64,000 bases of DNA, from the NCBI GenBank assembly GCA_000611775.1, contig KK106987.1, forward strand, positions 1,507,506 through 1,571,505, given 5' to 3'. A model generated the notes under the pieces. It worked only from the letters and a program-made list of their open reading frames with translations. It searched no databases and was not told the DNA's origin. Shown in pieces: positions 23,553 through 56,370 of this stretch. This DNA is from Umbilicaria muhlenbergii. Taxonomy: Eukaryota > Ascomycota > Lecanoromycetes > Umbilicariales > Umbilicariaceae. How positions within the stretch are numbered: the first letter of the stretch is position 1; the number at the start of each line of letters is the position of its first letter. A program made the translations under genes and the position numbers.

Positions 23553-24474
23553 CTACAGCAGTTTCGGAAATCTCGGCGTGCGGAATACGCTCGTGCTCAC
23601 CGCCGCGCACAGCAGTGCCGACGTCCAAGCCACCGTTGCATACGAGCTCAGCGCCTTGTCAATCACCCAGTCATCCGCCGCGAAGTTGTTCAGCTCGGCC
23701 CTTCGCTCATAGGACGCTGCGTTTGCGCCGCTGGGGGTGGCGCTGATTGTCAAGCCGAGGACGGCGAAGTATTGGGCGAGCAGCTGCAGGAGCGCGCCGG
23801 CGGAGAGGCAGAAGAGGAGGGTGAAGACGATGTAGGGAGTAGCCGCGGAACGCTTGTAGGACGGTTGTGGGCGGCTTTCGTGAGAGTGGTGCGACTCCTT
23901 TGGGGCGTCGGCTTCGTGGTGGGCGTGCTCTGATGGAGAGGCAAAGCCGAGGATGACGGTGAAGAGGGACAGAGTGAGGGCCAAGCAGAGGCCAACGGTC
24001 AAGAAGAAAGAAGCGGCGATTTGGAGGTTGCCGGCGTAGTGCACTATACACCAATCAGCCTTGCTTGTCTCGGAACCTTTGCTTTGGAAGCGAAGAGTTC
24101 TACTCACCCTGCTGACACTCTTGCACGCCCCCCAACAGGCCATCAGCTCCCTGATCATTCACCACGTCAATATCGAACTCGCTCGCAGTCCGGCAGCTCG
24201 TCACATTGGCTCCGTATGGCTTGTAGAACGCACATGCTGGCACGGTGCAAGTACCATTGATGTCGACGGTGGGGATACCGCACTTGTAGAATGGCGAGCG
24301 GGACGCAGTACAGAGGGGTGTGGATTGGTTACGGCCGTCGCTGCCGGCGTTCAGGGCGTAGTAGTAGGCCTGAGAGGACCAATCCGGGGATGTGAGAGCG
24401 AGGAGGACGAAGGTGGTGGAAACGATGGAGAGGGCCAGGACGGCGGTGGAGGCGAGGATGGGGCCGGCGCGCAT
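23553..24474 (-). CDS. Four-TM membrane protein, SUR7/PalI- or claudin-like
   Basis: Two exons, 24,474-24,108 and 24,043-23,553, are joined across a 64-nt intron (donor GTGAGT, acceptor TATAG), giving 285 aa. The start is the first true ATG; the frame is open further upstream without another ATG. Four hydrophobic segments are visible at about residues 5-27, 131-156, 192-219 and 254-275. The first external loop (28-122) has several cysteines (KCGI, CTVPAC, SC) and N-glycosylation sites NQS, NGT and NVT. The loop after TM2 is His/Glu-rich (162-177). This topology, with a large cysteine-bearing first loop, fits fungal four-TM cell-surface proteins of the SUR7/PalI or claudin-like type; that class is inference, and no exact family was recognised. 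A TATATA near 24,575 could be its promoter. It diverges from gene A. Confidence 0.75.
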
Positions 24475-25433
24475 GATGAGGGCGTTGCGAGACGATGCTT
24501 CTAGAAGGTCGGCGCGACGACGAATATGTGATTGAAGCACGTACGCTCAGAGAGTGAGAAGCTCAAACAATGTCTATATACACCGAAGCAGAGGATTGGG
24601 AGCTGGACAAAGGAACTGCATCTGAGATTCTGTGAAGCCAGACCCGAAGCACTTGGCTCTCCTCGACCTTGATTGGCATCCCTCACTCTCACGCCAGCTC
24701 CAAACAGCTGCGATTCACCACATGGCACTTGAACTCAGCCAGCCCAAGCCTCCTTTCGCATCCAGCTGAAAGCGAACTTAACCCTAACCATGGTTACCAA
24801 AGCCAATCTTGGCCTTACTGCGAGTTCTGCACGCGCCCAGGTGTGTCCATACCAATGTCGCCTGATTCTGCGACTCTCATTCGCTGTTTCAGGAGCTTGA
24901 CTTGACACTTGCGCAAAGCGAGCATGATCGATACAGGCTACCTTCAACAGGCTCGCTGGTCAGCCAGCCACGGGACCCGAGGCGTAGTCGGAGGCGGAGT
25001 CTCGACCGAGCTGTCGTCTCAATGCGGTTAGCGCAATATGGCTGCACCACGTCGCGCTGAAGCCAAGGGTTACGAGAGTAAGTTACCTTTACTAGTGAAG
25101 AGAGTTGCGCTGCTTCAAGCTGCCATTATTATTTCAGACTGAGGCGTGCTGCACGCCATGAAGGCTCTCCATGGGGAACAGAATTGTCCAGTGGCAGCCG
25201 GGAGGAGTAGGGGTGTTGCTCACACTATGTTTAGCATGCTGGCCCCTCCTGCACGCCGATGCTGCTTGGCTGAACCTCCGGGTTGAAAGGACGGAGGTGG
25301 GCCTGAGCTCACCATCGAATCTCTATGTATCTGGAAAATGAACAGTGACCATTGCCTGGACTGTGTTGTCGTCTGGGATCCTTGACATTGGCCTTGGAAC
25401 CACACACTCGACATCAGATGAACAGCAGCCACG
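24475..25433. promoter_or_regulatory. Intergenic region between divergent genes
   Basis: This 959-bp GC-rich spacer separates the start codons of the membrane protein gene (minus) and gene A (plus). A TATATA stretch lies near 24,575. A short ATG-started ORF at 25,035 is followed by a good donor (GTAAGT) and a matching acceptor (TTTCAG) but ends at once after splicing. No further gene was seen. Confidence 0.5.
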
Positions 25434-28400
25434 ATGGCTCCAACGCCGCTGGAGCACGTCTGTCTACCGGTGAACGTCGATGCCTTCGTCCTCAACGAGA
25501 AAGTCTGCGATAGTGGTCGATCCCGGATAGGCCCCATCACACAACCCAACTACGTGAGCCTGCGGCTCCAAAACAGCCAGATCCAGCACGATGTCCTACC
25601 GCACCTGGATTTGCACAACTCGCAACCAGGCATTGCCAACCCGAGGATCTCAAAGACGTACGCTGATATCTTCCACAACCTGGATCCTAACAATCCGAAG
25701 CCAGACGCCAAATCTCTGGTCGGAATCGACAGATCACGTCTAGGTGTCTATCTGCATTGGACGATACCACGCGCCTATAGGTCCGGAAGCAGCCAGGCGA
25801 CCAAATCTTCTGATAGCACGTCGAAGGAGCCTACGAATCCGAACCCAACGTTCAAACGCGTGCCGAACAGATGGCTTCTCGTCCGGATTCTGCGTGACCA
25901 TAGCCCGAAGAATGCAGACACTGCGAATATCGACAAGGCGGCTGCGTGGGTCATCGAATCGGACAAGCTGCGGAAGATTGAGGATCTGGACAAGTCGGTT
26001 GACATCGAGACCGACGTGACACCTTTCGTAGCCTACTCGAACGACGCAGATACCAATGACAGCATCCTGGACAGCCAGGCTGAGAACTACATTGGCCTGA
26101 AAGTGCCCTTGGAACAATGGCAAGAGACCCAAGCCCCTGGCACGGTGGGCGCGGATCGCGTCAAGTTGACCGTCATGAATAGCTCCAACCCACTATTCGC
26201 AGACTATGCGATCCACAATCCCAACGTCTTCTCGACAAAGGATAATTTCTGGTACAAGAACGACAGCAGTGGCAACCCAATGTACTTGGACAGTGCTGTG
26301 TGTGACTATATCGTTGTTGGCTGGCATTCAGACCAGGGACTTGATCCACTCGGCGTCATTGCTAATCCATCTGCTCCAAAGGACTTGCAATCGCGTCTCA
26401 GCGATCTGTTCTGCGCGGCACCGATTCCGACCAGCGATAAGGACGATCTTACAGCTGGCGAATTGGCAAGTGGAGCAGTGACTCGCTTGTTCTGCCACAG
26501 TGCACGGTACTCCGTCAAGTGGGACAACGTTACAAAGCCTGCTACGCCGGCCGACGATTACGCTGCAAACTTTGGCCCGGATGTGGACATGGAACCCGTG
26601 GCGGTGGGAACGTCACCTTTGGACTCTGTGCTAGCTTTCTTCCAAGCTCACGAACAGGATAAGCCGTTCGAGGAGAAGTTGCTGAGTGACAAGGGAAACA
26701 CCATCGCGGAGTCTCTGCTGGGGATGCGCGAACTTCTGTATGCGACGGAGGACGACTACGACTCGCGCATCAAAGCAGCTGATCTGATATTTGGCCACAA
26801 CTGGGGCCGAGCACAGGGCGGCTTCACCTGGCATTACGACAAGAAGAAGGAGAAGGACGGGCCACCAGCTGTGCCTACGCATGCGGAGATTGCTGTTGTG
26901 AACCAGTTGAACGAGCTTCAGCAGACTTGGGATACCACGGATCGCAAGCTGAATCTACTCAAATGGTCGTTGTTCGCGGAGTTCTTCAAATATGTCTCAG
27001 ACCCGAGTAATGGCAACGCTGACCGCCGCAACACGCTGTATACGCCCAGAGTGAAGTTGCTGAAGAAAGAGGCGCAGTTGATGGTCGACAATCAAAAGGC
27101 AATTCAAAGCGCGATCGACAATATCAACAACGCGGCAAATCCAGTAAAAGTCAAGAAAGTAGCCAACGATTCTTTCTTCAAGAGAACAGACCCAACGCTG
27201 TGCCTAGCAGGGATCGACTCTGGATGGGATGCTGAGTTCCTCTCCAATACTCCGACGCGGTTTGTCCACCAGGTCGGCCCAGCAGGAACGGGCACGAGCC
27301 TCACGGGAGGCACTCTCGACACGATCAAAAAGAGACTGCCAGCGGACCTGATCGATACCGTGAGCAAGCTAATTACCGAAGCCTCAGGTGGATATCAGGA
27401 CAAACTGAAGCTGTCCGGGCATAAGATGTGGACGGCTCAGCCATTCTCTCCGCAATTCGTGGAATGGGAAGGGATATACTACCACGTTGATGACAGCCAA
27501 TGGAAAGTCGATCTTACCAACAGCGCCCTCAGTGCTAGCAACCACCAGCACGTCACCTATGTCAATCCTACCCAGCTGTCAGCTCTAGACGGACCTCGTC
27601 ATGATCAAAGACACATCTCTGGCAGAATGCTTGTCCTGCCCCAGCCATCCTTCGCCCTCGGCGCTGTAGTCGCCCAAGTCCTCGGCGCGACACCGATTGC
27701 AGATCTTCCAGCGAACTTGAAGACTCCGCAGCAGCAGAGCGACTTCATCACCGCTGTTCAGAGTCTCAAGTTCATCAGCGGTGAGCTCACTGGGCTTACC
27801 GATGCGCTGTTGACAATGGCGGCAGGTCAGCATGTCAAGCCTAATGTTAGACGCCAGGGTGAAATTCCACATCCTATGAAAGCGGCTGTCAATGCGGGAG
27901 CTGCCGTTGGGCTGGAATTTGAGGACTTTGCCCTGATCGAGGCGGAGACGGGTAGGACGCCGTATGGAACCTTGACAGACTTTTCGCATGTGAATGCAAA
28001 TCCGTTCAAGAGTGTGCAGCATGGGCAATTTGGTATGATGATGGTTTCCTCATGAGTCTACTCTTGGAGTACTAACAGAGTTGAAGCGATCACCAAATTG
28101 ACCATCGTCGACAAGTTCGGCCAAGCCATCTCTGTGCCCGGACCAAAGCGAACACCAAGACTCCAAGATCCGAACAATGCCCCCATGCCAGACTTCATCC
28201 ATCCCTGCTTGTCCGAACAACTCATCCCAAGCCTGCTGCCAGATGGTACATTGAACACAGTCTACACCCCCAAAGACACTCAAGATGCAGCGACCAAGTC
28301 CGGCTACCCGATGACGCCATTCATCCAGCTCACTCCCACCATCAACCAGGAAGCTCGTATCAATTCCGCTTTCGTCGAAAAAGTCTTCGACGCAAACAAA

Positions 28401-29907
28401 AGCGCCTCCTGGAAACCGTGTCTCGAATGGGAAAATCCCATCTCCGGCTGGATAGTCGTCAACTACGCCGACTCCTCCCTTCAATTCTTCACCGCCGACG
28501 GAATCTTCTACACCGCTCTCGAATTTGGTGGTCCAACTGGCACCATCGAAACACAGAAATGGCTCCCCTTCGACCCTCCAGAGAAAGCCGAAAGCTTAGT
28601 CTCCGACCAACTGGACGCATTAATAAAGAAGATGACGGGTGCTGACGGGAAGAACTACCTCCTCGCTCTCTGGGATCTGATCGACCAAGCTATAAGAACC
28701 ATGCCGTTCCCGCCCTCTGACTACGCCCAATACGCCAACGCCATTGTCGGCAAACCTCTGGCCCTTACGAACGTAGGCTGGAGTCTGGAGCTTGCGCAGC
28801 CGCCGTTCTGGGAGCAGCATACCCTCCCCGCTCCACCATCCCCAGGCCCGAACGACACTATTGACCCTCTCCGTGTCAAAGCGGGAGATTACCTCTACAA
28901 ATACCCATTCCCCGTCAAAATTGGCGACGTACGTCTTCCTCCCGCGCTTCCCACCCTCCCAGCTTGCTAACTCTTTCTGAAAGGCCGACCGCCCGTTCGA
29001 CGGCCTCGTCGCCTACTGGGACCCCGCAAACCCCTCCCCCAACACCACCTCCTCCACAACCACAAACTTCTCTAAAATCTACACCTACTTCCCCGCCACC
29101 ACCACCAAACCCGACGGCACCCCCCTCCCCGACAGCATCCGCACCGGCATCGCTCCCGACACCTTCCCCACCCTCAATCCTTACTTCCTCGACCCGGAGT
29201 CCTACACCAACGCCGCCAACACCTCCAACCCCACAACAGGCTTCACCCAAGCGCACACGGCGAAATTGATGGTGAAAACACTCCTCATAGACCCCTACAC
29301 CCCCATCCACCTCTACTCCGGCGTCCTCCCCATCAACTCCCTACAGCTACCCGCATGGACAATAAAGCAAGCCCTCTCCAAAATGACTGCGTTTTTCACA
29401 ATGGGCCCCCTCCTCATCACCAAAGACGTCCCCAAAATCTACGACGCCGCCGCTCCTCTCACCGCAGACACCTGGCTCACGGTACAAAACACCAACACCC
29501 CAACCAACGACATCCCGCCCATCAAACTTCCCATTGCGGGCGGGAAGGGCATGTGGAATTGGTTGCAGCCATACAGCATCCCTCCGGCCGCTCCCGCGGG
29601 TGCAAACGCAGCGAGTGCAGCCAGTACGCCGAGTTCGAGCACGGTCGCCACGACGGGGACGGGACAGAACGTGACCAGATACAACTCCCTCCCTGTCGGC
29701 CAAGAGGATGGCAGACTCCGACTCGACCCGGCTCCCTACACGTTTGTCGAGGGCTTTTTGCAGTTGGCGCGCCCGTTGGTGGGCGAGAAGCTGGCGCCGC
29801 CAGAGGGGTTCACGAAAGATGATGCGTCGGCTGGGGCTGGGAGCGGGAGTGCCGTGAAGACGAGCGGGACGGAAATGGGGGCGGGGACGGTGGTCAAGGC
29901 ACGTTGA
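25434..29907 (+). CDS. Gene A: very large protein of unknown function
   Basis: Three exons (25,434-28,032; 28,087-28,928; 28,984-29,907) encode 1,454 aa. Both introns are short (54 and 55 nt) and keep the frame; intron 1 has a perfect TACTAAC 10 nt before the acceptor and intron 2 a GCTAAC. The start ATG has a good context (CACGATGG). No signal peptide or TM segment is evident, so it is probably cytosolic. Notable segments are RIGPITQPNYVSLRL near residue 30, LGVYLHWTIPRAYRSG near 103, PNRWLLVRILRDH near 143, CHSARYSVKWD near 354, a GRMLVLPQPSFALG segment near 730, and an Ala/Ser/Thr/Pro-rich stretch near 1,365-1,385. From memory, similar proteins with the LHWT(I/L)PR motif occur in fungi and in bacteria such as actinomycetes; this is unchecked, and no domain name or function is known to me. 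It converges on gene B. Confidence 0.88.
28033..28086 (+). other. Intron 1 of gene A
   Basis: Donor GTATGA, branch TACTAAC at 28,070-28,076, acceptor TTGAAG. A nearer AG (ACAG at 28,075-28,078) would put a stop in frame shortly after, so the more distal acceptor is chosen on frame grounds. Confidence 0.85.
28929..28983 (+). other. Intron 2 of gene A
   Basis: Donor GTACGT, branch GCTAAC, acceptor GAAAG. Splicing joins GD to ADRPFDGLV in frame. Confidence 0.85.
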
Positions 29908-30064
29908 TTAGGCTGGTGCAGGGCAGACTTGGCTGTTTAATGCACTGTCTCTCCTGTGATGAGCTCGTTTTCATGAGCAATTTTCCGCTTTGACCTTGAT
30001 CTAGGATTGAGCGTTCAGGCGAGTGTTTGCTTACGTGGTTAATGCGGATTGATAATGTAGCCTA

Positions 30065-30595
30065 CTCAGCAACGCCGCACTATAGGCAATGCCCCCACCC
30101 CCCTCCGGGGGCGGGTAGAAATAGCACGAGTACACATGAACATCAATAAAAAATCAGAATCTCGTCCATTGAGCTGCAGACTTCAGTTTAAGTAGATCAT
30201 TTGAAAGCTCTACATTGTAATTTATTGTAGAGTTGTAGGATCTATAAATTTTAACACCTTCAAGACTGCTTTTGCTGTGATGGCTGCAGTCTTTGCAGCC
30301 TGTGTCATTAAACTGTTGAGTGCTTTAAATTCTCTCTCTTAATAAACAGTATGATATGTTATATCAAGTAATAAATCAATAACAGAAAGATGAATTTTCT
30401 AAATCTGTAAAACCCTTATTATAAATCTTAATAACTCTTCAAAGACACTCTTCTTTCTTCGTTAAACACATGCAATTACAATGAAGAAATGATCAATTTC
30501 ACTGTTCATTTTCTATTCCCCTAATTATTCCCCCGCCCCCTCCCTCGCCCCGGGGCGGGGAACTGCCGCATCACCTACAATGCAGCGCCGCTGAG
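30065..30595. mobile_element. MITE with TA target duplication (Tc1/mariner-like)
   Basis: The element is 531 bp. The left end, CTCAGCAACGCCGCACTATA, matches the reverse complement of the right end, CTCAGCGGCGCTGCATTGTA, with a few transitions. The match continues through ATGC and then into GC-rich blocks that also mirror each other. TA flanks both ends (30,063-30,064 and 30,596-30,597). No ORF is visible in the AT-rich, CpG-poor interior, so it is non-autonomous. TA duplication and TIRs fit the Tc1/mariner/pogo superfamily. The GC-rich ends with an AT-rich, mutated-looking core form a sharp compositional contrast with the surrounding gene island. Confidence 0.85.
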
Positions 30596-30597
30596 TA

Positions 30598-30931
30598 GAT
30601 TCCACCAGCAGCAAATCACCTCTCAGTATGGCTTATCCACCGCCTTTCAAAAAGCAGGAACAAAGCGACTTCAAGATCCTCACACTAATTCATCACTGTG
30701 TACTCAGCTCTCAAGTCTCCCGCGAGCACCAATATACTACCCCCTAATTTCTACAAACCGAGCCCTGCACCGACCTACATCCGTCCCCATGCCCAAAAAA
30801 ACAAACCCATCCGTCTCCATCTATCACCCTCCCCGACACCAACGAACTCAGCTATCCTATCGCCCCCATCCCCCCCATCCCCCCCATCNNNNNNNNNNNN
30901 NNNNNNNNNNNNNNNNNNNNNNNNNCCCCGC
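30598..30931. other. 3' flank of gene B with assembly gap
   Basis: This is the sequence between the MITE and the gene B stop codon. A run of 37 N (30,889-30,925) directly follows a C-rich short repeat of CCCCCCAT type (30,860-30,888). The gap ends six bases from the gene B stop codon, so it does not interrupt the coding region. No gene was seen. Confidence 0.8.
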
Positions 30932-33900
30932 TCAACCTCCCCCCCTCACCACCGCCTGCCCCCCGCTCGTCCCGCGCACGAACGGCAAAGCGGGATACCA
31001 CGTCTCCAACCCCTGTACCAACCTGACCGGCGGCTTGTCCAGCAACTCCCAATCAGTCCTGCCATCCGCATTGACTCTCGGCCCGTTCGATGCCTGCGTC
31101 GTCGCCGCCGCGGCCGCGCTGCCAGCAGCAGCAGCAGGAGGCGGGGGGGTGCCGAGCGGCGCATTCGCCTTCATCTGCTCGGGCGGGCGGACCGGCCATT
31201 CGAGCACGCGCGCCACGTGCGCGACGAGGCCGGCGCGGAGGGCGGGGAGGGTGAGTGCGTCGGCGGTGGGGTGGGTGGTGCTGGTGGCGCCGGGAGGGGC
31301 GGGAACGGTGGTGGCGGTCGAGGGGGGCGAAGGTGCGGAAGCGGGATTCCAGAGGGTTTTGAAATGCTGCCATCGCTTGGTCTCGGCGGTGGTGTCGTCG
31401 TCCGCGACGTCCGGCTCGAAGTACTGCCCCGTGAAGAGGGTGCCCTGCGCTTCTCGGGCGGGGAGGCGCCAGGCGCCTGAGATGGTTTCTCGCATGGCGG
31501 CCGGAGCGTCGAAATCTACGATAGGACTGGGGCAGAGGACGGGATCGGGGGGCTTGATGCGCACGGCTTGGACTAGGTCTACGGTACCTCCGTTTCCGTC
31601 GAGCAAGGCGTTGGGGTTTTTGGTGTGCAGAGGGTCGTTGGCGGGGTTCCACACACTCCACAGCGCGGTAGCGGCGGATTTGAGCACGAGCTCGGCCTGA
31701 AAGTCACTCTGCAAGATCGGATGGTCTGGGTCTTCGATCTGGTAGATCTTGATCTCTAGCTTCGACGTGATGTCGTTTGCTGCTTTGCTGTGCATGGGCC
31801 AGGAATAGACTTTGGGCACGGTCGTGCCTTTTGGCAGCGTGATGGCTTGTTCAACAGGCGGTTTTGTGTTGTCGTCGGGGTCGGGCACGAGAAGGTGCGC
31901 CTCGCTGAGCGCAAAGTCGCAATCCACCCTTATCGCCAGCCTCCCCGCCTGGACTTCCCACGCGCTTGTCGCGCCTGTGGATGGGAAATCCTTGCCATCA
32001 GCAGCCGGGGTGTTTGCTGGCATCAATCCACTTTCAATAGAATACTTGTGCTGCGCCACGGCAGTCGTGTTGCTGTTCCCGACGGTGTCTTTGGATGGCG
32101 GGGCACTGTTGGGACCAGGCGCTTTGACCATGTCGTAGAAGTCCTTGAGGGAGATGGGGTCTGTGACGTTGCTGTTCTCGGAGGCGCCGAAGTCGATGTC
32201 AAAGCCGAAGAACCAAAAGTCGACGTGGGCGTGGCCACCGAAGTCGTGGGGGCCCCAGAGGATGAGGTCGGCGCCCAGGTGGAGGGAGACGTGAATGTGG
32301 ATGAAGAGAATGTCTACGGTGGGGTTAGTATGTAGACTCGGAGCAAGGGGGATGGAACTTGGGGAAAGAGTGGGCTGAGTTCGGAATGGGTGGGGTTGAG
32401 TTCTGGGGAAGGAAGAATCGGGCTGACCAATATCGCACTCCACACCGATAGAGAGTGAGATCTCAGCTCGGAAGTGGAAGGGCTTAAAGTTAATGAGTGC
32501 GTCCAAGATGACGTCCGCGTACGCACTGACGGGACCAACACTCAGGGAGAGATGGAGCGTCCCGCCAGCCATGGCGCACTTGGGCGTTACGGCCAAGTAC
32601 GCCGTGCCGGTGATCTGGATGTTGTCTCCCACGGTAAAGTTCAATCCGATCCGTGCTAGATTTTGCGGATAATGTGCAGGCGGATTATACGACCTCGCGT
32701 AGCCGCCCAGCGTGACGACCCAGTCTCCAGCATGCGAGTTCTGTCCGAACCAGGTATAGCATGAAGCCTGGCCGGAGAGATGCGCCATTGGGACGTAGAC
32801 GTGCGAAGCTGGGGCCAAGGTGGCGTTGGCGGCGATGTAGCCCGCGACAAAGTTGAGTTCCACGCCGACGATGATCTCAATGTAGAACAGTGAGAAATCC
32901 GGATCCACGAGTGGCTCCATCTGGAAAACGCCATCGGCAAACATGGCGATAACGACGCCTTTGTCGTTGCCATCCGCCATGCCGGTGTCGATGTCCACCA
33001 TTAGCACTGCTGTCAACGTCAGGACATCGAACGCGGTAATCGTCATGCCGGCGCAGAGCCAGCCGGAGCCTTGTTTCGGGTAGACAAAGTAAGGTTGATC
33101 GTAGACCATCTTATCCAGCACTTTCATTGGATCGTTGCCGGTGTCTGAGGCGGCGGCGTCGGCGATGAAGGGGAAAGTAGACAGCTCGCTGAGTTGAGGC
33201 ATGCGGACAAAGTAGTTGTAGCCGAAGCCTAAACGGACGCCGGAGATGGTGGCGAACTCGAGCTCCACGAGAGGACCGTCGAGTTTGCCGTACACAAAGA
33301 CTGCTCTGTATGCATCGTCGCCGTTCGAGTTCTTCTTGATAGTATACTGGCCGACAGCAAGTACCTGCCATGCCTTGAATCCTACGGCTATGCCGCCACT
33401 GTACGTCTCCGTGTTTCCGGCTTCGTCGTGGATGAAGACGCCCTTGAGGGTTAGCGGCCCCTGCTGCACGCCAACTTCAATGCCGTGAAGACTGGCGTGG
33501 ATGAGACCCTTGGTGACAATATCTGCGAGATGGTCGAGCTTGACTTGGCTCAGGTCAATCTGAATTGTGAAGCCTTTAACAGCAAAGGTCAGTGGCCCGA
33601 GATTGAGCGTCGCGTCGACAGTGACAAACAGCGAGCCTTTCTTGTACTGGAGAGTCAATGCGCTGATAGTCAATGGACCGGCTGTGGTCTTTGTATCTCC
33701 TTTGGTAGGCGGCGCTTCAGGGTCAGCAGATGAAGCTGTGATAACCGTCTCTGAGGTGGTGACCGTCGTTGTCCTTGTATCACCGGATGACACGACTGCA
33801 GTATGAGTAGTGGTCACCTCTGGGGCGGGTGGCTTCGTCGATGCTTTGTCCGTGGTGAAGACGTGATCCAAGACGACCTTGCCGCTGACAACCACTATAA

Positions 33901-36743
33901 AGTGGTGGCCAGCTCGGAGAACGACATCGGTGTCCTTGGGTGCTTTGTTCTCTTTGATCTGGAAGGGAGGTATATCCACGGGGTATTGCTGGGCAATCGT
34001 GGAAAGCTCGCTCCTTGTTATGCCTTTAAGGGTCGGATCCAACGTCGTCGACGGGTTGTCGTCTTCCACCCATACGTACTCTAGGTGGTCAAATGGTTGG
34101 GGAAGTTCCCCTATAAGCGGAATTTTGTCCATCATGGGTATCTGATCCACAGATATACGGATAACTCGCTTGGTAATGCCTATTTTCGGGGCTGCTGCAT
34201 TCGTTTTATCACTGGGCGTCTGGTATTGAACAAAGGTCAAGGTGAATCCGGCAATACTAAGCCATACAGTAAGGACCGAGCTATTTCCCAATTTTGCATC
34301 AGTACTCTTCTTGCTGTCGAATTGAAGCTCAGCAGCGGGCGCGCCCGACGCGGTAGGGTTGATAGCAATGCCACCGACCCACTCCGGCAGCCGATCGCCT
34401 GCTCCTGGGACAATGCTTTCTGCGATCGAAGCAATGGTCGAGGCTGGGCTGGCGACACCGAGACGGGCAACAAATTTTGTCTGGGTTTGCTTATTGCCCT
34501 TGGTGTATTGGTCTGCGGCTTTAGGCGGTAATTTGCCGCCCTCTGGATTATCTTTCAGGTATTGGGCTGTAGCCGTAGAGCCGCTTGCATCTAGCAATGC
34601 GCTGACATATTGGTAGCTGAGATCAAGCTCCAGCTCGCCCAAGGTCAGGATGCCAGTGATTAGGAACGATGATGCAGACTTTCCACTGTAGGTGTACAGA
34701 ATATCAAGCGATCTGAGATTGATCTTCGACATGACAGCCATTACGCCACCTTGGACATCAGAATCAAAGAATGAGCTTAAGAGCCCAACAGAAACATTCC
34801 GTGCAGATGCTCGTAAGAGCCAATTGCCGCCAGCGTTGGTCTTGTCGTAGTGCAATCCCAGCGCGGAAGATGCAGATGGGATTGGAGGCTGGCTATCCGT
34901 AGGCGGGGGGGCAGTGAACGCAAACGTCGAATACAGGTCAATACGGTATGCCTTGGACTGGGTCTTATCTTGAGGCGATTCCACGGTCACGTCCACCGAT
35001 GCCTCTGTCCAGGAGAATCCCGAAGGAGCTGCTTCTGAGTCCGGCTTAGGCTCGTCATTACCGAGCGTAAGATCTGCAGAGAAGGTGAAGACGGAGCCCG
35101 TAGGACCCGTCCGCGAGAATGAGACCTCGGCAAAGCGTAGCATATGCGGTATGGCCGGCTGCGAGTCTTTGTCGAAACCCACCAACTTCCAAAGGTCCAG
35201 CGATGTACCGAGCTGCGCGGAATCTATTCCTTCGGCACGGAGGATATTGGCCGGCGACAGGCGAGGATCCCAATCAGCCGTTCTCAGGTCAGTTGGGTCT
35301 GCAAAGTCATTTGCGAGCATGAGACGGCCGAAGAACGTAGAGCTTTTGGAATCATACACGAGCCCAACAACGATAGTGAGATCCGTTGGCTTCCAAATAG
35401 TCAGCAGGCCAATACCCCACTGGAGCCGCTTGCCACTGGGCTGGGTGGTGTCGTCCACGATGCGTATGTACCAAAGGTGAACGCTGTTGAAGATTGTAGA
35501 GAAGGGATCTGACCCATTCCCGTCTGTTGTATTGGGTAATAGGTCGTTGTCCACTCCAAATGTGTCTTTGATCATACTGCGAATACTCCCGCTCCCGATT
35601 GGTGTCAGGAGCAAAGTGCGGCCAATCTCACTCAGGTCGATGTTTAGATGGAAGCCCAAAACGTTGAAAGCAAAGGACAATGTCACCGACCTGATTATCG
35701 ATGCTGCAGGATTCTTGAGATTATAGCGAGATTGTCTCGTCAATGTCACTGTGATCGGTGGCAGCGTCACTGTCTTGGAGCTAAAGCCGTCAAAGCTTTG
35801 GCCAATCCACGAAAGCGCGTTATCAATGATCTTGTCACCGGTAATCCGGTAGGAAAGTGTGACAGTCGTATAGTATGCTTCATCGGTGCTTGTGCACCAC
35901 AGAGCATTTGTCGGGGTGCCATCGCCTATTTTCCGAGTCAAATCACGGTGGTTGGTAGCTGAGTCGGTGTGCCAGTCTGGAGCATCTATAAGCGTGGCTT
36001 CGAGCAATCTGGCCGCATCAACGGCGTCCAGAAAGTATCTCAACGGAGTCGATTTCGAGAGATCTATGCCAAAGGCTGCACACAAGTCGGCCTTCAGCTT
36101 CAGCGGGTTGGACTGTTGGGGCGGGCGGAGAAGCATCACTCCAGCTATAAGGGTCAGTACTGTCTTTTCGAGGCACTAGAAATGGCAAGGCTTGTTGCAC
36201 GATTCCGCGGCCGCCATACTGTCTACTTGCAGGTCCACCGCTTGCAGCCTGACTGATTCACCGAAGAAGAGTGGGGTTGAGGCTTCAATGCAGACGGAGG
36301 AAGAGCAGTGGGATCGCTTTAGACGCGGCCAAGTTTTGTGCAACCAAAGTCAATCACCTTCAAATTGATGGATAGGCACCTACAGCGGCCACGTTCGTGC
36401 ATCAAGGCTTGATAAAGTACTTACATCCATACGCATCACCAATCCATGCATTGTTCTGTCGTTTATCGGACTCAGGCACACTGTCGAAGTAGGCATCATT
36501 CCGCTCGGATGAGAAGTACAGACTCCAGTTCTTCTTCCGCTCTGCGTCATCCTTGATCCCGGCCCAGAATCCCGTGGAGTCGATCAGGACATCATTGTCG
36601 GTTTGATCGGGGAGGCCAGTCTTCAGGGCCGTTGCATCATCCGACACCAGACCTTCAGACTTGAGGATGGCTTTCCACGATCCCGTGTCATTCACCGTGG
36701 CCGGGGCGGTCGAACCTAGGAATTGGTCTGGCTCTGCAGACAT
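30932..36743 (-). CDS. Gene B: DUF6603-type giant protein
   Basis: Three exons are proposed (36,743-36,425; 36,144-32,428; 32,313-30,932), giving 1,805 aa and ending in TGA at 30,934-30,932. The 280-nt first intron has donor GTAAGT and acceptor TATAG after TACTGAC; phases match, but it may hide a small extra exon. The second intron (114 nt, TACTAAC branch) is a multiple of three and free of stops, so a naive ORF reads through it. Residues about 920-1,395 look like DUF6603: a beta-rich region with alternating hydrophobic strands (GPLTFAVKGFTIQIDL, LDGPLVELEFATISGVRLGFGYNYFVRMP, HVDFWFFGFDIDFGAS). I recognise the family from memory; its function is unknown. No signal peptide is seen. The C-terminal 200 residues are Pro/Ala-rich. 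The N-terminus is uncertain: the frame stays open upstream of 36,743 and protein-like segments continue to about 37,000. It is divergent from gene C and convergent with gene A. Confidence 0.82.
32314..32427 (-). other. In-frame intron of gene B (114 nt)
   Basis: On the minus strand: donor GTCAGC, branch TACTAAC, acceptor CCGTAG. Removing it joins GVECDI to DILFIHIHVSLHLG. The intervening 38 codons are Pro/Ser/Thr-rich and unlike the beta-strand pattern on either side. GTCAGC is a weak donor, so retention is possible. Confidence 0.75.
36145..36424 (-). other. Long first intron of gene B (280 nt)
   Basis: Donor GTAAGT after GDAYG; acceptor TATAG before GVMLLRPPQQ; one base plus two bases make a serine codon, so the phase agrees. 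It is several times longer than the other introns here. A protein-like frame (GGPASRQYGGRGIVQQ) near 36,190-36,245 may mark a small internal exon. Confidence 0.6.
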
Positions 36744-38187
36744 GTCGAACGTATGGTGGAGATTCAAAACGAGTAGAGGCTGCCGTGGAGTTGACCGTGG
36801 TCTTGTCAGTGTTGGATCATCCCGTAGCCCATCCTGTCGTCGAGGGAATAGCTAGTAAGCCATCGACGACGATCGTCCGCACTTCGATCCAATGTCTAGG
36901 CGAGGAGTCCAAGGGATTCCGAGATCAGAGTGACCGGCGTGCAGTTCCAATGCCTCCTCTAAAGTCACGGAGAGCCTTCTGGACCGGCTTCACGACCATG
37001 AGGCTTTAGGCGGGTGACAGATTGAATTGGAGTTCGGTCTTGTCGGAGTGTTTGGTCTCCGGGCCTATCAGTGCCGCCGCATGAGAGAAGGACGATGCGA
37101 TTGAACCTGATGTAATTGAAGCCTGAAACCTGATGCGATTGAAACCTGATCCGATTGACTAGGCCATTCTTCTCAGTATGGTCGACACTGCCGCTCTGGT
37201 CCGGGAGCTTGTTCGTGGTGAGGGTGCCACCATCCCCCTCGTCGACCAGCGGTGTCCGGCTGAATGGGTCGCCGGCCTGCGCTGTTGGTATGGTGTGCAG
37301 GTCGAGGCTCTGAATGTGTCTTTCTTGATCTCCACGCACGGTCCGGTAGCTTGGCCGGACAATGCCCATGGCTTCCGCTTCGGCTTCAGCTTCAGCTCCA
37401 GCTCCAGCCCCCGCTCCAGCTCCGACGCCTCGTCTTGGACGCGAGCTGGACGGGGCTGCAGTGGCATGTTGCAGCGGGGTGTGTGAATATCAACCGATGT
37501 GTGAATATGTCTCCAAGTGCCTCGCAGCAGACGGCTTCGACCAACCACGACGCGCCAAGACGACGCTACTCCAGTAAGCTTTCCTCCGCGGGGCCGTGAC
37601 GCCGCGTCGAGTTGCTGCGGGGGACGTTGCCTGCCGAGGACGGATCCAGGGTCCGGTTCCCCCGCATTAGCTCCAATAATCAATGGGCCCGTCGCACTTC
37701 ACTGCAGCTTCCAAGTTCGTCTCCAGACGCGGCGCATCGCATTCCGGCTCACGTGCCTGCCGGTGCCGGACGCTGGTGCCGGACGCTGGTGCCGGACGCT
37801 GGTGTCGAGCCCCATGGCTGATGGCTGAACGAAGCGTCCTCGAAAGCAGCGACGTGGCTGCAGACGTGGCTTCAACTCGCTCGAAGCATGAGTCTGCTCG
37901 AGTCCAGGACTAAAGTATCCGGTCTGACAGGGTGGCGGATGCTCAAGCTCGAATCTTGGCGCTGAGCCGGAGCGTTGATTCCATCCAAGGGCTGCCCGGT
38001 CTGTGCGGTCGTCGCCGTCATCCGGTTCTTTATTGGGACTGCTGTCTCGGAAGAGGCAACGTCACTGGGCGTGGTCGAGACGAACGACGGATCGAGTGGA
38101 GAAGCGATGATCAGCTAGATTGAGCGGCCTGCTCACCGACCACACCGAGATCCTGCTTCGACGACCCTTGGCACCAAGTCGTGCAAG
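36744..38187. promoter_or_regulatory. Shared upstream region of genes B and C
   Basis: This 1.44-kb GC-rich divergent spacer holds a degenerate repeat of ACCTGATGCGATTGAA-like units at about 37,093-37,160, a CTCCAG-type hexamer stretch at about 37,379-37,430, and a 13-bp tandem repeat at 37,762-37,800. Long stop-free frames on both strands (for example minus 37,683-37,159 and plus 37,178-37,486) have biased, basic composition and no motifs, and are not called. A minus-strand ATG at 36,999 followed by a conserved-looking frame may belong to the unresolved 5' end of gene B. Confidence 0.5.
37762..37800. repeat. 13-bp tandem repeat, 3 copies
   Basis: Three perfect head-to-tail copies of GGTGCCGGACGCT are followed by a partial fourth. 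They lie about 390 bp upstream of the gene C start codon in the spacer shared with gene B. Confidence 0.9.
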
Positions 38188-41100
38188 ATGGCGAGATCGC
38201 TGGTCCAGAGTAAGATCACGAAGGCGATTCGCGCTGCCCACGGCGGAGCGGTCGAGGACGATAGACTCCCTCCAGGACACATGCGGCTGTACAGCTTCTA
38301 CAAACCCTCCCTGCAAGCCGGCCCATATGGCATCGAAGCGAAGCAGGCAATCAGTGCGACTCGGGGCGACGACACGACTGCTCAAACGTTGACCGTGTTC
38401 AATTCCACGAGTGCCAAAGATCCAGGTGGCAATGACACGCTTCCGCTTCTCCAACAGGAGTTCTCGGTCATCGCTCCGCAGTTCAGTCTCGATCCGAAGC
38501 TGATCAATACGTACTATCCGCCGACTGGCCATCAGGATGAAGGCAGGATCTTGCCGCATATCGTCTTCAACGATCCACACGTTCCCTGGTATCGAGAAGC
38601 CGGCTTGAGCGAGTGGATGACCGGCCCTGTAGACACCGGTGCTGATGGCTCAAACATGAAGCCAGACGAAACGCACGGCCGGAATTTCGTGCCGTGGCTG
38701 GGCCTACTCGTCTTCCAACCGGATGATCTCAAAGTGGCCGACACGGCTGCGGAGTCGCTGAAGTTGAAAGGCATGAGTTCGTATGATGCACTCAAACTGC
38801 CGGCCGACGGCGCCTTTCCCATGACCGTCGGAGGCTATCTGTCCAAGATAACCTCGCGAGTCTACTATCAAGCCGGGTACCAAGGCGATAGTCAGAAGAA
38901 AGTCTACACCAATCTGCAAAACTCCACCGAAGCCATGTCGGCCATCTTCCCATTGAAGTCGCAAGTTCAGGACATGCTCGGGACCAAGGACGACACCACC
39001 CCGTTACAAGCGCAGAAGCTACTGGCGCATGTACGGCATATCAACACCGTTGGCTTTCCCGATGCTGGCGTGGAGGAAGAAGGCTACTACTCAGTGATTG
39101 TCTCCTCAATGACAGGGAACCAGAAGGAGGTCGCACCCTCCACTCATATCGTTCACCTCGTCTCACTAGAACACATGGACGTGACGCTGAGCAATAAGAA
39201 TTCGTCCTTCTTCTCGACAGATAACTCCGACCGCATTGGCCTGGTCTCGTTGTTCTCGTGGACCTACACATGCATACCCGATTCCATCAGCTTCGAAGAA
39301 ACCATGGCAGCGTTGGCCAATGCAGCTCAACCTCTGCGCCCACCTACCGAAAGCATGGAGGCGTTATTGTCAAACAGCCTTAACAGCACGGACCCAGTAC
39401 AGGCCAAAATTGGTATGGCGTTGCACGACAGACTGAACGCTGGCTACACCATAGCAAGGTGGAGAGCGCCGACTGGAGAGGAGAGCGTGGCTTTCAATCG
39501 AGGTCCCCTGGTTCCAATGCATACTAAGGAAGTACCGATGCCCCAGTTCTCTGACGGTTCCGCAAGGCTCTGGCCGTCGCTATCGATGACTGGCAAAGAC
39601 TACCAAATATTCGATGGCTCGGTAGGAATCATGGATGCCACGTATTCATCTGCTTGGTCTCTTGGCAAGCTGATGGCCATTTCAGACTCTGTGTTCAACG
39701 CGGCACTGATGCGCTTTCGGAGCACCGTCTGGTCCGACGCCTCCTCGGTGACTCGTATGGCAGTGAACGGTGTCCCAGCAACAGCTACTGTATTGCAGAA
39801 GAGCTTGGCAGCGGTGACCAAGGCGCATGGAGTCACAGGCGACAACTTCCGCGGTCCTGTCTCTCGACTCAGTCCGTCGGGGAACCAGCCGGTTGTGACC
39901 GCCGTGGACGATCCCAATGTCTTGCCTGTGTTCCGACAGGCGGTCGATAAAGTGGTTAATCTTCATGCTAGCGCTGGAGCCGCTCTATATAACGGGTACG
40001 ACGGCGCACCAGGAAACAATAGCGACTGGGAGGTCATATGCAACTGGCTAGCCAATGTCTTGTACCTTGCCAATATTCCAGCCCACCTCTTGTTTCCTGA
40101 ACCGAGCCACTTGCATTCTCACAACCAGTCCGCCACACCGTCGGACCAGTCCAACTTCCACCCAGAGGCGTTGCGCTTCTTCCATATCGACCATGCTTGG
40201 ATCGATTGTTTCATCGACGGAGCCCTTGGCTGCGCCAATCACCTCGAGCCCAAGTATGACTATACGCGTCTCCGCATCAAGGCCATCTTCAACGAATATT
40301 TGGATGGCACGATCGGCAACACTGGAATAAAACCGCCTGTGCCGCGGTATGGTTTCGTATTGAGATCTGCTGTAGTCAAGTCAGCTCCTGATCTCCGCCT
40401 TACCGTCACATGTTGGATGTTGCAGACGGATGACAAGGGCAAGAAGGAGTGGGTAGAGGATCCCACCCGTGACCCTCTGATCAGGCATACAAAGATGGAC
40501 GAGTTCACCATCTTAAGCTTGGTGGACTGCTCCCCAGAAGAGATCTGCCTCATCAAGATCGCACAGCCACCGCATCAGCAACGCTTCGCATTGCACTCCG
40601 AGGTTGGGCCTGATGCAAGCACCGGTCTCAATAACGTCAAGCCTCACATTACACTCAAACGGCTGTACACCAATTCGAAATGGGCACCACCAGTAGTGGA
40701 TCCCACTGATGGCCGGAAGCCGATTGATCCAAGCGACTTACTACAGTGGGCAGAACTGAAACCTGATCAACAGGTCCCGGAAGCGGACCAGGCAGGCTGG
40801 TATTCTGCAGACACTCGTTGCATCAAGCCCATCGAGATCACACAAGCCGCGACGGATAAGCTGCAGGCCTGGGCCAAGGACCCTAAGTATAGCAGTAATG
40901 GAGCGCCGTATGATGATGTGGTGCCCAACTCATGCGTGTTTGGCCTCGAGATGAATGATCCCGCGTGTGAGTAATGTTACGTATCTTCGAATGTGAAGCC
41001 TGCTAACAGATCCAGACCAACTCGAGATCAACGGCGTCGCCCCCGTCGACTTCATTCCATTTCCAGCCTGGACTCGCAGGCTGTGGCTTGGCCAAGCCGA

Positions 41101-42040
41101 CCCGTCTCCCTTCATCGCAAACGCTACGCGCGTCAAAGCCACCGACCTCAAAGTCACCGCCGCCGCCCCCACAACCCCAAACACAGTCCCTCCGAAGAAG
41201 ATCGCCCTCGCCGCTCCCGCCCCAACGCTGAAAGCCATCATCCCGCCCAACACCTTCCTCAACGTCATCAAAGCCATCCCCACCGTCCCCCCACTCAAAA
41301 AGACCTCCCTCGTCGACCCCTTCATCAACTCCCTCGCCCCCCAATTCGAACTCCTCATCCACCCGGACTACCGCCCCCCTCCACCCCGCCCCTTCCACGC
41401 GCCCCACGCCGCCAGCGACGTCTTCTCCCCCCTCGACTACCTCCCCACCCAAACCGCCTCCCTCTACGACCTCGTCTTCGCCGTCCGCCGCCGCGCCAAC
41501 CTCGCCACCGACCTCAGCCTCCAATCCCTCACCATCGAAATCCCCGTCTCCGACCACGGCGACCCGAAAGACCCCGACGGCTGGATCCGCGAGCCCCTGC
41601 TGCAAGCGGGCGATTACTCCGGCACCGGCGTCCGCATGTGCGCCAACCCGCGCTTCGTGCCCGCCCTCTTCAACGGCGCCGCCTCGAGTATCGGCTCCGC
41701 GCTATGGGACGCCAAGGCCGTGCTGGGCATCACGCTCGTGCCGCGCTCGGGGCAGCAGACGGGCGCCATGCCGCTGGTGAAGGACGGGAAGAGTTTGGAG
41801 GCCAGTGTGCGGCTCGCGGAGGCGAAGGTCCACCCGGTTGTGGATACGCGGACGACGGCGCTGGTGGCGCAGGGGGTGGATCCGGAGACGGGGCGGACGG
41901 CGAATCAGGCGTTGCCGAGGGGGAGGTGTATGGTTAAGATGACGGAGCGGTATGCGGATGGGAAAGGGGAGCAGTGGAGTTGGTGCGTGGTGCTGAAGGT
42001 TGATGCGGGGGATTGGGATCCGTGGGGGAATGTCGTGTAG
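38188..42040 (+). CDS. Gene C: very large protein of unknown function
   Basis: Two exons (38,188-40,966 and 41,016-42,040) encode 1,267 aa; the 49-nt intron has donor GTGAGT, branch TGCTAAC and acceptor ATCCAG. The start is the first in-frame ATG (GCAAGATGG). No signal peptide or TM segment is evident. Landmarks are GRNFVPWLGLLVFQPDDL near residue 164, RIGLVSLFSWTYTCIPDS near 348, GYTIARWRAPTGEE near 418, NWLANVLYLANIPAHLL near 618, RFFHIDHAWIDCFIDGAL near 663 and YGFVLRSAVVKSAPDLRL near 721. The last two recall, from memory, a bacterial family of large uncharacterised proteins with ESIRFF..D..W.DALVDGA and GFLLRSAVV..WPGL patterns; this is unchecked. If right, it suggests shared ancestry or transfer. 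Neighbouring gene B shares the upstream region, so co-regulation is plausible. Function unknown. Confidence 0.88.
40967..41015 (+). other. Intron of gene C with two in-phase acceptors
   Basis: GTGAGT to ATCCAG, branch TGCTAAC at 41,001-41,007. A second acceptor (AACAG, 41,009) is six bases upstream and in phase; using it would add two residues. The distal one is preferred because the proximal AG is too close to the branch point. Confidence 0.8.
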
Positions 42041-42997: not shown

Positions 42998-43002
42998 AAT
43001 CT

Positions 43003-43292
43003 TGTCAGGGCCACCATATATATAGTATGACAGTACGACACTATGATACGACACTATAGTACGACACTATGGTACGACACTATAGCTTAGATATGATGAC
43101 TCAGTGCCTAGCGCCTTGGCATCAAGTGAAAACTCTTCACAAGGAGGTGCAGAAACCTGCTTCCTCAGTGATCAGTTTTGCCACTGAATAGAAGACGTAT
43201 AACCATTGCATTGACCTCATCATGACTATATTGCCTATGACACCCCGTTTAAACACCACTACGACGCTCTGTCGTACACCCCGCCTCTTACA
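43003..43292 (+). repeat. 5' LTR of A2 with 13-bp repeats
   Basis: The LTR starts TGTCAGGGCCACCATATATA and ends CCGCCTCTTACA. It contains four near-perfect copies of a 13-bp unit, GTACGACACTATR, at about 43,028-43,084. This copy keeps clearly more CpG than the 3' LTR of the same element. Confidence 0.9.
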
Positions 43293-46200
43293 TACTGATC
43301 ACTCAGTACCTTCAGGCGAACGGTCATGTTGAAAGCAAATAAGACACGATGGCATCAACGCTTCAATCTCATCAGGTCAGTGAAACAGTCAACAATCAAG
43401 CTGAGACAGGCCCTTTGATTAGCAGGTTTACATTATCAGTCATTGATACCCCTACTTCTGACATCATTGATGATGATGAACATATCACTGCAGGCAACCC
43501 TGATGACATCATTGAAGACCTTGAGGCAGTCACTGCTCATAATCAGGAGGTCATCAAGCATCAGTGACTACAGTTATGACATGTATGACAAGAAATTAAG
43601 TTTGAGGACAATAAAAGGAAGCTTCAGGAGCTTAATTAATGCCTGCAAAAAGATCCTTCAACTACAATAAACTCAGAGAATGATGCAGGTTCACCACATG
43701 AATTATGACATCAAGTTATGACAGATATCACACCTCTCCCTTTTCAACACCTTATAAAGCCATGAGAGCCTCATCTTTATGCAGGAGGCATTAAAGTCAT
43801 GAGATGAAAACTTCAGAAATACCTGAATGAAATCAATCAGAATCAGAAGCTGATGTCAGAGCAATTTCTTACTGAATGAGATTTCATCATCTGAGCAGAC
43901 ACTTACCTTGAGAAAACAGTCATGAGTGATTGATGAAAGCAAAAGGAGCAGCATGATCACATTTAAGTCATTTACAACAACTTTTTAAAGATTTTAAAGA
44001 AGAACCTATCCTCTGATGAAGACATGAATGAATGAAATATCATCACCTTTAATGCAGTTGAACTCTGCAGTCATGATATAATCACCTCCTGATATAATAA
44101 ATTATCAGAACTTTACCACTTCCTTTCAGCTTCACACAAGGAAATCAGTGAGACACTTATTTAAAACTGTTGATGATCAAGGCTTTCTCATCACATCTTG
44201 ACTGAACTATGATGTTGAGATCTGACGCAGGTTGCAAGACAGTCAGTGCAGGAAATTTCAACACATTTTGATGTCATCATCAATCATGAACTGTTTCAAA
44301 GCCGCTCAGACATCAAAAAGGATCATTAAAGCAAAACTGACAATAATGACAAAAGTATGACACAGACATCATATTATGACAGAAAAGAATCTTTCACTGA
44401 ATAATAAACCTCTCACCCTCAACAATTCAACTGCAGAAGAGAAAACAATTCATGAGGCTTTTATTAAGAAAGTAGTCATGATCAAAGCTGAAATTCAAAT
44501 CACATATCAATTGCAGAGAAAGTGATCATGACAACAACACAGATGTTCACAAGACCTTCATGCTGACAAGAAGACTTTATTTCTAAGAATGAAGTAAATG
44601 CATGAAAAGCAGCAGGCCTCTGTATTAAATGTGAAGTCATCAGTCATTGAACAAATGAATGTATGACAGGATGATCAACAGCAGTCATTATCATGATTGA
44701 TGTGAATAAATAATTCACAGTCAACCTTCAGCTCATCTTTTTACTTATCATTGATAATATCTCACATCTGATATCAGGGCAGCTAGAGGTGAACTTTCAT
44801 ACAATAAGAAATGATCTGAAGAAAAAATATTCATATATTATCAACAACAGCAGTCAGGGTAATACAATCACATGAGACATTGTCAATAAGCTGTTCCTAC
44901 TGACTGAATTCTATGAGGCTCAAGGTAATGCATGAGGTAATGTGATTGAGCTATCAGAGTCTGTCATACTGATGATTACAGCATACAACACTGACAGTTA
45001 ATCTTATCACTATAACAATTATTTCTTTATCACACAAGACAACACATCAGCTCCTTTTGTCCTCAGGTTATCATTTCTAGTTTATGCAAACTCAAATCAC
45101 TACTATGATACAGGTAAATTCCTATGGAGAAAGCTAAAACATACTATCACATGTCATATATTCACTGCTGATGAAAAGAAGGTGTTGAAGAATGTCTTAC
45201 ATATGAACAATCTCATCATTACTGACTGCTTTATAGGGCCGGCGGACCTAGTGGCTGATATGGAAAAATATACTCTACAGATGAACTCATTGTGATATGA
45301 CAAAGAGTACAATAATGTTTATGACAGTCTACCTCCTGAATATCATGACTTCACAGACATATTTTAAGCAGCTGAGAAGCAGTCTCTACCTGAGAGAGGT
45401 TCACATGATCATGTCATTGACTTGAAATCAGAGCAGCAATCTTTATTCAGAAAGTTATACTTGATGTCCTCAGCTGTGCTCAATGTACTGAAGGTATATT
45501 TAGATGATGTTATGAAGGCAGGCATAATTCATAAATTAATATCATCTGCAGCTTCACCTGTTATGTTTGTACTGAAATCAGACAGCAGCCTACAACTAGT
45601 CATTGATTATAAACGCTTGAATGATATTATCATTAAAAATCACTACTCACTACCACTTATATCAGACATGTTGAATCATCTTCAAGGAGCTAAGAAGTTC
45701 ACTAAGCTGAACTGCAAGGATGCATATAATTAAATATGAATCAAGGGTGAAGATGAGTGAAAAACAGTGTTTTGAACATGATTCAACCTGTTCAAATATC
45801 TTGTCATGCTTTTCAGTCTCATGAATGCTCCTGCTACATTTCAGGCATTCATTAATAAGGCTCTTGATGAGTTCCTTGATATAACTTGTGTGATTTATCT
45901 AGATGATATCCTGATCTTCAGCAAAGATGAATCTGAACATGAGGAGCATGTACAACAAGTATTAATTATGTTATGATGTCATGATCTTCATCTTAAGATC
46001 AGCAAATGCTTCTTCAATGCAACAGAAGTGAACTTCCTGAGGTTTAAGATCAACACTGAAGGCATACATATGAGTTCAGAAAGGATTTGCGCTGTTGAAG
46101 AATAATTATCATCAGAGAACATTCATGAATTGCAGATCTTTCTAGGCTTCATCAACTTCTTCTGAAGGTTTATAAGAGACTACTCACAAATTGCAGCATC

Positions 46201-47074
46201 ACTGTTAAATCTTCTGAAAACAGGAAAGAATAAAAAGAAGACTGAGGATACATCATTCTCTCCTCTTCAATCTCAACAGACTGTTATTAAAAGAAAGCAG
46301 AACAGCCTGATCTCATTGTAAAGGTTTAACACAAATTATTCAGCATGCAGCTCATAAGTCAGAGGAGAGCTACAACAAGAAAACATCATACTTGTCTCTT
46401 TTTCACTTTCAGGAGCTGCATTGAAAGTGTTTAATGCTCTGAAGAAGACCTTCATGAGTGCTTCATTGTTACACTACTTCAATGAAAACAAACTCATGAG
46501 GGTTGAAATGAACGCCTCTGAATTCACAATTGATGAAATCTTGACACAATGCTTCAAGGTCAACAGTCAATTGCACTGATTATCAGTTGCTTACTACAGT
46601 AAAAAGCTGCTAGATACTGAGACCTGATATGATACAGATGAGCAAGAACTCCTTGTCATCATGAAAGTCATGCATCATTGACAGCACTACTGTCAGGGTG
46701 TTAAACATCAAATTGTCATACTGACTGATCATGCAAACCTTGTTTGGTTCATGACTACCTCAAACCTCACATGAAGGCAGCTCAAGTGGGCTGAAAAGCT
46801 CACTGAGTACAACTTTGAGATCACATATCAAGAGGGCAAGAAGAACTCTGCTGACAATCTGTCAAGACAACCTGATTATGAACTGCTGAAGACTGTCAGT
46901 ACCTCAACTGCTGCTGAAATAATGTGACAGTCCTTTCATTTAGGAAGCAAGGACTATAAGTCAGTGCAGAAGAAATTATACACACTTATCACAATGACAC
47001 TGCAGTCAAGACGCTCAGTATAACAGAGGCTACAACAAGAGAACATTATACCTGTCATAATGAATACTACCAGT

Positions 47075-47341
47075 ATGATGAACACTGAAGATGACAGTCT
47101 CATTGAAACATCAGCAGTGTGAAACTTATCTGCTCAAGAAGAAGCAAGCTGTGATGAATATATCAATATGATGAATACTGAAGCTGACAGCATGACTGAA
47201 ACATCAGCAGTTCATGATCTACATGCTTAAGAAGCAAGCCGTGATGAATATATCAATATGATGAATACTGAAGCTGATGATACAACTGAAACATCAGCAG
47301 TCCGTGACCTACATGCTCAAGAAGCAAGCCGTGACTGAATA
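47075..47341 (+). repeat. 90-93-bp tandem repeat in A2, 3 copies
   Basis: Three head-to-tail units start at 47,075, 47,168 and 47,258 with ATGATGAA(C/T)ACTGAAG. They lie in the linker between the RNase H and integrase regions and encode an acidic Ser/Glu/Thr-rich repeat. Confidence 0.8.
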
Positions 47342-49132: not shown

Positions 49133-49240
49133 TTAAGATGTGATTCTTCAAGATCAATTGAGAAGCTGTCACAAAAGTCATGAGCCTTAAAATGTGACTC
49201 TTCAAGATTGATTGAGAAGCTGTCACAAAAGTCATGAGTC
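49133..49240 (+). repeat. 54-bp tandem repeat, 2 copies
   Basis: This is the counterpart of the three-copy array at 1,731-1,892 in A1, in the same position after the chromodomain-like segment. Confidence 0.8.
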
Positions 49241-51256: not shown

Positions 51257-51261
51257 AATCT

Positions 51262-56300: not shown

Positions 56301-56370
56301 CAGTTATAATGACTCATCTTTCTTTTGTATGAACAGAATCAGTGAGGTTATTGATGACTGACTGACTTTA

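Follow-up and report, generated by a model that had tools for sequence, protein, structure and literature searches.

The closest described relative of the genes considered here is a protein family, DUF6603 (PF20248), whose Pfam description states no function. Further comparisons are offered by apolipoprotein B (ApoB) and other large lipid-binding beta-sheet proteins, by the beta-barrels of bacterial outer membranes, and by tailocins and extracellular contractile injection systems (eCIS). A catalog of eCIS fibers describes S74, collar, and propeller modules that resemble those of genes found beside bacterial DUF6603 genes, here called D genes (PMC12923769). We analyzed a 64,000-nucleotide stretch of the Umbilicaria muhlenbergii genome (contig KK106987.1, positions 1,507,506 to 1,571,505; hereafter, the window) and confirmed three large adjoining genes, A, B, and C, over positions 25434–42040, of which B encodes a DUF6603 protein. 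Because their neighborhood is conserved in bacteria and in most fungi tested, sequence comparison makes it nearly certain that A, B, and C are parts of one system. They are best read as the core subunits of a structural system that is conserved between bacteria and fungi and has a relative in haloarchaea.

Bacterial loci illustrate this conservation most directly. Of 134 loci searched with profiles built from fungal proteins only, 106 contain A, 131 B, and 112 C, and 105 contain the full set. The homology is therefore independent of mixed profiles; judged by these matches, A, B, and C each have bacterial homologs. When GTDB genomes were scanned with five bacterial C proteins (110 relatives, 80 kept), a profile search located all three genes in 75 of the 80 C-anchored loci, always as B-C-A on one strand, with matches that touch or overlap (median gaps of -5 and -47). 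Three of the others (L029, L052, and L088) hold B and C before the sequence ends short of A, and two (L070 and L090) hold C only, L070 lying away from a contig end. An earlier interpretation made from the DNA letters and open reading frames (ORFs) of the window (the sequence-only reading) had proposed a single system, to be abandoned if homologs proved scattered and never adjacent; these loci contradict that outcome and bear out the proposal. When 72,556 plasmids were searched by tblastn with exon 1 of A, the main B frame, and the C-related protein P0035, 8 (A), 11 (B), and 8 (C) records matched at 22%–31% identity. The hosts were Streptomyces, Embleya, and Paenibacillus, with Paraburkholderia and haloarchaea added for B alone, and on several plasmids, the matches to A, B, and C adjoin on one strand.

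The neighborhood also recurred in a sample anchored on DUF6603 and thus free of C bias, drawn from the phyla of four seed genomes (Streptomyces, Marinomonas, Chitinophaga, and Hyalangium). DUF6603 profile matches occurred in 12 of 396, 9 of 398, 13 of 296, and 14 of 193 genomes, counts that include each seed and, in the third and fourth phyla, one match below the cut-off. All matches above the cut-off outside the seeds gave 44 loci. A C-type gene (score ≥100, same strand, ≤2.5 kb) adjoined DUF6603 in 43 of these, across the four phyla, and an A-type or X2 gene was present on the same strand of the fetched stretch in 39 (missing from the short contigs L102, L104, and L107, and from L125 and L144, the last also without C). 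By inspection, 26 loci are of type I, with C and A, and 17 are of type II, in which X1 and X2 take the positions of C and A, respectively. An hhalign probability of 97.2 over 227 columns shows X1 to be distantly related to C. Type II loci also occur on two haloarchaeal plasmids, in Paraburkholderia, and in S. europaeiscabiei, and in the related haloarchaeal form, DUF6603 is accompanied by a distant relative of C and by a further giant protein. The window contains all three homologs of the bacterial B-C-A system next to one another; A and C lie on the plus strand and B on the minus strand, so this is not a co-oriented B-C-A operon.

Protein matches numbered at least 149 for C and at least 179 for A (the best 120 of each listed), and at least 112 for a 541-residue part of B. 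Among the matches listed, the nearest named relatives are fungal, led by Byssothecium and Thozetella, and the named matches are mostly ascomycetes, together with the chytrid Spizellomyces, Amanita, and bacteria in the case of B. Ordinal-looking locus tags from the listed matches (JGI-style numbers were excluded as non-ordinal) cover two or all three of the families in 18 fungal genomes, of which 15 have a pair no more than five tags apart. B is near C in 12 of the 13 fungal genomes that have both, and A, B, and C are all together in four (LTS15, H2200, TI39, and MMC17); tags 005213-005214-005215 of Exophiala xenobiotica correspond to C-B-A. Members are apart in three of the 18 genomes (Q9207, Q9208, and IFR05), which counts against a single system in fungi, and a dispersed repeat flanks the locus on the side tested. 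Both would fit a case in which unrelated giant genes had come together by chance or through their repeat surroundings and formed no functional unit, an explanation that is contradicted by the same genes adjoining in bacteria of several phyla and that we consider barely credible.

Trees of C and B were both quick, that of B without a mixture model, and many rows are odd in composition, with two long rows among those of C. In the C tree, 22 fungal rows are separated from 56 others by a branch of length 1.21 (Shimodaira-Hasegawa-like approximate likelihood ratio test support of 100). The B tree places all 30 fungal rows, those of the chytrid and Amanita among them, in a single clade (support of 100) inside type I bacteria, and 20 type II rows form a clade of their own (support of 100). 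Branches next to the fungi have support of 80–92 and a deeper one 99; no close donor was seen in the B tree. Bacterial phyla are intermixed. Provided that its root separates the two bacterial types, the B tree implies a transfer from bacteria to fungi, and fungi probably acquired the A, B, C system in this direction, as the sequence-only reading had suspected. That reading would have been undermined by trees following fungal species history with no bacterial relatives. Bacterial relatives are present, and the B and C proteins of the window group with fungi of different classes, contrary to species history; C, for example, groups with Byssothecium, Thozetella, and Exophiala, each from a different class.

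The structures in Table 1 are predicted gene models, with splice sites assigned manually according to GT/AG ends and reading frame. Their outer coordinates are those given previously, and their spliced lengths compare with earlier values of 1,454 (A), 1,805 (B), and 1,267 (C) amino acids. For frames of such length, chance is excluded, and A, B, and C are intact fungal genes; judged by the first exon of A, the DUF6603 core of B, and the first exon of C, each gene is single copy in the 34.8 Mb, seven-contig genome. A and B are convergent, and B and C diverge over 1.4 kb. At 56%–58% GC against 31%–36% in the flanks, the genes form a GC-rich island. Its proposed position between repeats is supported on the right side, where the stretch covered by the repeat test has at least 39 other near full-length copies in the genome at 87%–91% identity (40 of 405 candidates scored).

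Table 1. Positions of the three genes and associated features in the window
Feature	Position	Strand	Details
Gene A	25434..29907	+	3 exons: 25434-28032, 28081-28928, 28984-29907; 1456 aa
Gene B	30932..36743	-	3 exons: 36743-36425, 36144-32428, 32313-30932; 1805 aa; DUF6603 protein
Gene C	38188..42040	+	2 exons: 38188-40966, 41010-42040; 1269 aa
DUF6603 core of B	32090..33688	-	Split by second intron; profile matches E 8.1e-106 and 1.2e-12
Divergent spacer shared by B and C	36744..38187		60% GC
Short AT-rich element between 3' ends of A and B	30040..30610		Pieces elsewhere in genome
Dispersed repeat, right flank of island	43000..44500		Genome copies

Pieces of the AT-rich element in the convergent spacer, which also holds a run of N, occur at dozens of places in the genome (68%–89% identity). 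The AT-rich flanks (1–22500 and 43000–62000) show an excess of CpA/TpG (index 1.57–1.60) and a low TpA/ApT (0.69), a pattern that is unlike the usual CpA-type signature of repeat-induced point mutation and may reflect CpG decay. The island also contains a two-exon gene on the minus strand (23553–24504) that by eye resembles a four-transmembrane protein of the SUR7/claudin type; a Pfam scan of it gave zero matches above the cut-off.

The identification of B as a DUF6603 protein is secure (E 1.4e-120; 403.7 bits against a curated cut-off of 27). Profile searches, which had been proposed for all three proteins, were thus informative for B, whereas exon pieces of A and C gave no match above cut-off or noise in Pfam, NCBIfam, or PHROGs. 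The bacterial A and C homologs tested gave no Pfam match above the cut-off, no PDB sequence matched the main frame of B or the first exon of either A or C, and no enzyme domain was recognized in A, B, or C. By hydropathy alone, the three proteins have no N-terminal hydrophobic segment and no clear transmembrane segment, as had been noted before (best 19-residue windows: A, 1.62; B, 1.79, which is borderline; C, 1.22). Alignment verified the bacterial patterns previously noticed in C (RFF.ID..WID..IDGA and GFVLRSAVV). The first ~900–950 amino acids of C match bacterial C, the last ~300 are without a bacterial counterpart, and extra sequence beyond the bacterial core is found in the window versions of all three proteins. 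The core of B is predicted to form a long antiparallel amphipathic beta-sheet, non-polar on one face and mostly polar on the other. The overall fold of the C model was not recognized; immunoglobulin (Ig)-like domains are possible in it.

Many bacterial loci further include one to four modular, fiber-like D genes with varied tips. The D family comprises seven BLAST groups chosen by eye, one of which may be a different, hemopexin-like protein. Its 87 ORFs, most of which directly follow A, are spread over 60 of the 90 loci from bacteria and archaea. Among 61 D ORFs scanned (25 of 26 families listed), F5/8C domains were found in 5, beta-propellers in several, and S74 and CAP in 1 each; single members match PHROG tail-fiber, tail, and baseplate families, and C1q-like tips were discerned by eye only. 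The fiber-like genes of L136 and L138 have a C-terminal phage tail Collar domain. Families found in 54 genes beside DUF6603 loci (25 of 80 families listed) include Collar (4), Lactamase_B (4), Gp10_C (3), S74 (2), Peptidase_S8 (2), and PhoD (2), and the two Collar genes individually displayed are both from the Hyalangium-phylum sample. The placement of D genes after A in many bacterial loci ties D to the system. This, together with a patchy, transfer-prone distribution that would be unusual for a housekeeping role, makes it unlikely that the proteins form an intracellular lipid-handling complex, in which B, by means of a long hydrophobic groove, would transfer lipid or coat lipid droplets, A and C would be its adaptors, and the bacterial D genes would encode separate adhesins that accompany it.

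Swappable tips that include phage tail-fiber modules, sporadic occurrence in the four phyla sampled, plasmid carriage, and the resemblance of B to large barrels could instead indicate a weapon used in conflict or predation: a particle of A, B, C, and D that is released from the cell, finds other cells by its D tips, and breaches their membrane when B refolds as a pore. On a Paenibacillus polymyxa plasmid, genes for baseplate V (at some 9 kb) and for a nuclease lie ~8–10 kb upstream. Nonetheless, the 54 neighbors (families listed) and the recurrent BLAST groups include no recurring family of toxins, immunity proteins, sheaths, or tubes, and PADLOC gave no match to Streptomyces A, B, C, and D. 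No sheath gene (PF04984) lies near DUF6603 in 24 chosen bacterial genomes (tube and baseplate families were not searched singly); it is absent from 10 of these and is otherwise on another contig or at least ~0.6 Mb away. We hence regard a weapon as decidedly unlikely. The F5/8C and propeller tips of D, and the filamentous or multicellular habit of many hosts (Streptomyces, Frankia, Hyalangium, and filamentous fungi), would also suit a surface or matrix structure in which an amphipathic layer coats or supports hyphae, spores, or colonies and displays adhesive D domains. However, Marinomonas and Azospirillum are hosts as well, and the core proteins of the window showed no signal peptide by hydropathy, leaving such a surface structure very improbable. 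The core proteins gave no sign of a prophage or phage remnant: a tblastn search of 50,697 phage records with Streptomyces A, B, and C was negative, and window pieces matched PHROG profiles only at E ≥0.2.

The conserved neighborhood, absence of a recognized enzyme domain, amphipathic sheet, and modular fiber neighbors together fit a structural particle that touches lipid. We tentatively propose, as one possibility, that A, B, and C form the core of a self-assembling, lipid-contacting, fiber-bearing, non-contractile particle, of which the window holds the core only; its assembly, lipid binding, and release are all inferred. In the cytosol, A, B, and C would fold to give a large particle, held together by A and by C with its possible Ig-like domains, and the non-polar face of B would bind lipid or membrane as the beta-belt of ApoB does. 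In bacteria, D fibers would dock on the particle and determine its target, like the receptor-binding fibers of tail-like particles. Since there is no evident Sec signal, release would be by lysis, or the particle would act within the cell. Fungi would have taken up the core from bacteria long ago, and the fungus studied here would keep it without D-type fibers, possibly relying on added sequence. Use of the fungal core may differ from that in bacteria, given that the window has the core only and extra sequence on all three proteins.

Several observations weigh against a particle of this kind. The B model has a predicted template modeling score of 0.60 and does not distinguish a barrel, a groove, and an open sheet; Foldseek returned no match at E ≤0.001 for the B or C models, and its top matches for B are membrane barrels. 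Six of 20 invariant residues in A are charged, and A may therefore have an activity. Phage-fiber modules are a minority (Collar, Gp10_C, and S74 in 4, 3, and 2 of the 54 neighbors, respectively, and S74 in 1 of the 61 D ORFs), and D profiles had no match in the fungal window. X2, which replaces A in type II loci, has no detectable similarity to it; A lies upstream of B in 8 of the 44 DUF6603 loci (L124 and L133–L139), so gene order is not universal; A is near B or C in 7 of 11 fungal genomes with A tags; and Aspergillus, Metarhizium, and Morchella have A homologs without B or C among the matches listed.

Individual loci varied in other respects. In the myxobacterial sample (L133–L139), A is a few kb upstream of B, with a fiber-like gene between them in L138. 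Some DUF6603 frames are ~3200–3500 codons long, with extra sequence around the core (L103, L114–L118, L123, and L132), and one fungal DUF6603 protein (P0294) has PF00753 within the same chain. In Paenibacillus polymyxa (L004:19985-23112), A is followed not by D but by a nuclease-like protein (by eye) and by a member of the PLD family (PF13091) that matches DrmC weakly. Metallo-beta-lactamase-fold genes lie beside bacterial loci (4 of the 54 neighbors; e.g., L137:11983-13005), and one such gene, recognized by eye (L009:6213-7445), belongs to a BLAST group that spans seven further loci. Genes annotated as a CATRA conflict system and a CHAT domain precede the locus on a Streptomyces plasmid (L003:1074-6130).

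Three giant proteins whose genes have stayed together in organisms as different as Streptomyces, myxobacteria, and filamentous fungi are very likely useful as a unit, although only B belongs to a family with a DUF number. The orphan DUF6603 thereby gains two regular partners, a bacterial fiber repertoire, and a structural hypothesis for B, with Streptomyces and ascomycete fungi as tractable hosts for study. The system would also add a multi-gene, multi-subunit case to bacteria-to-fungus transfers. We found no paper on DUF6603/PF20248 or on the three-gene system in the open-license PMC literature.

Comparison with known systems begins with DUF6603 itself, which the window B and its bacterial and haloarchaeal counterparts match far above the cut-off. 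The loci share modular fiber genes with S74, collar, and propeller modules with eCIS and tailocins, but differ from them in having no nearby sheath gene in the 24 bacterial genomes. ApoB and other large lipid-binding beta-sheet proteins resemble the B model in its long antiparallel amphipathic sheet, and ApoB is its best VIA match. That match is loose (root-mean-square deviation [rmsd] of 9.7), and B differs further in its lack of a PDB sequence match or evident secretion signal and in its occurrence in prokaryotes with conserved neighbors. Outer-membrane beta-barrels (porins, LptD, BtuB, and SprA) fit with rmsd values of mostly 10–12, whereas B is found in Gram-positive bacteria and fungi and has no evident signal peptide. 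It is conceivable, if somewhat unlikely, that the three-gene system represents an undescribed class of non-phage, non-contractile, lipid-associated particle, built of three giant proteins around an ApoB-like amphipathic beta-sheet, with swappable tail-fiber-like tips in bacteria, a related form in haloarchaea, and a bacterial-derived core that fungi run without D-type fibers.
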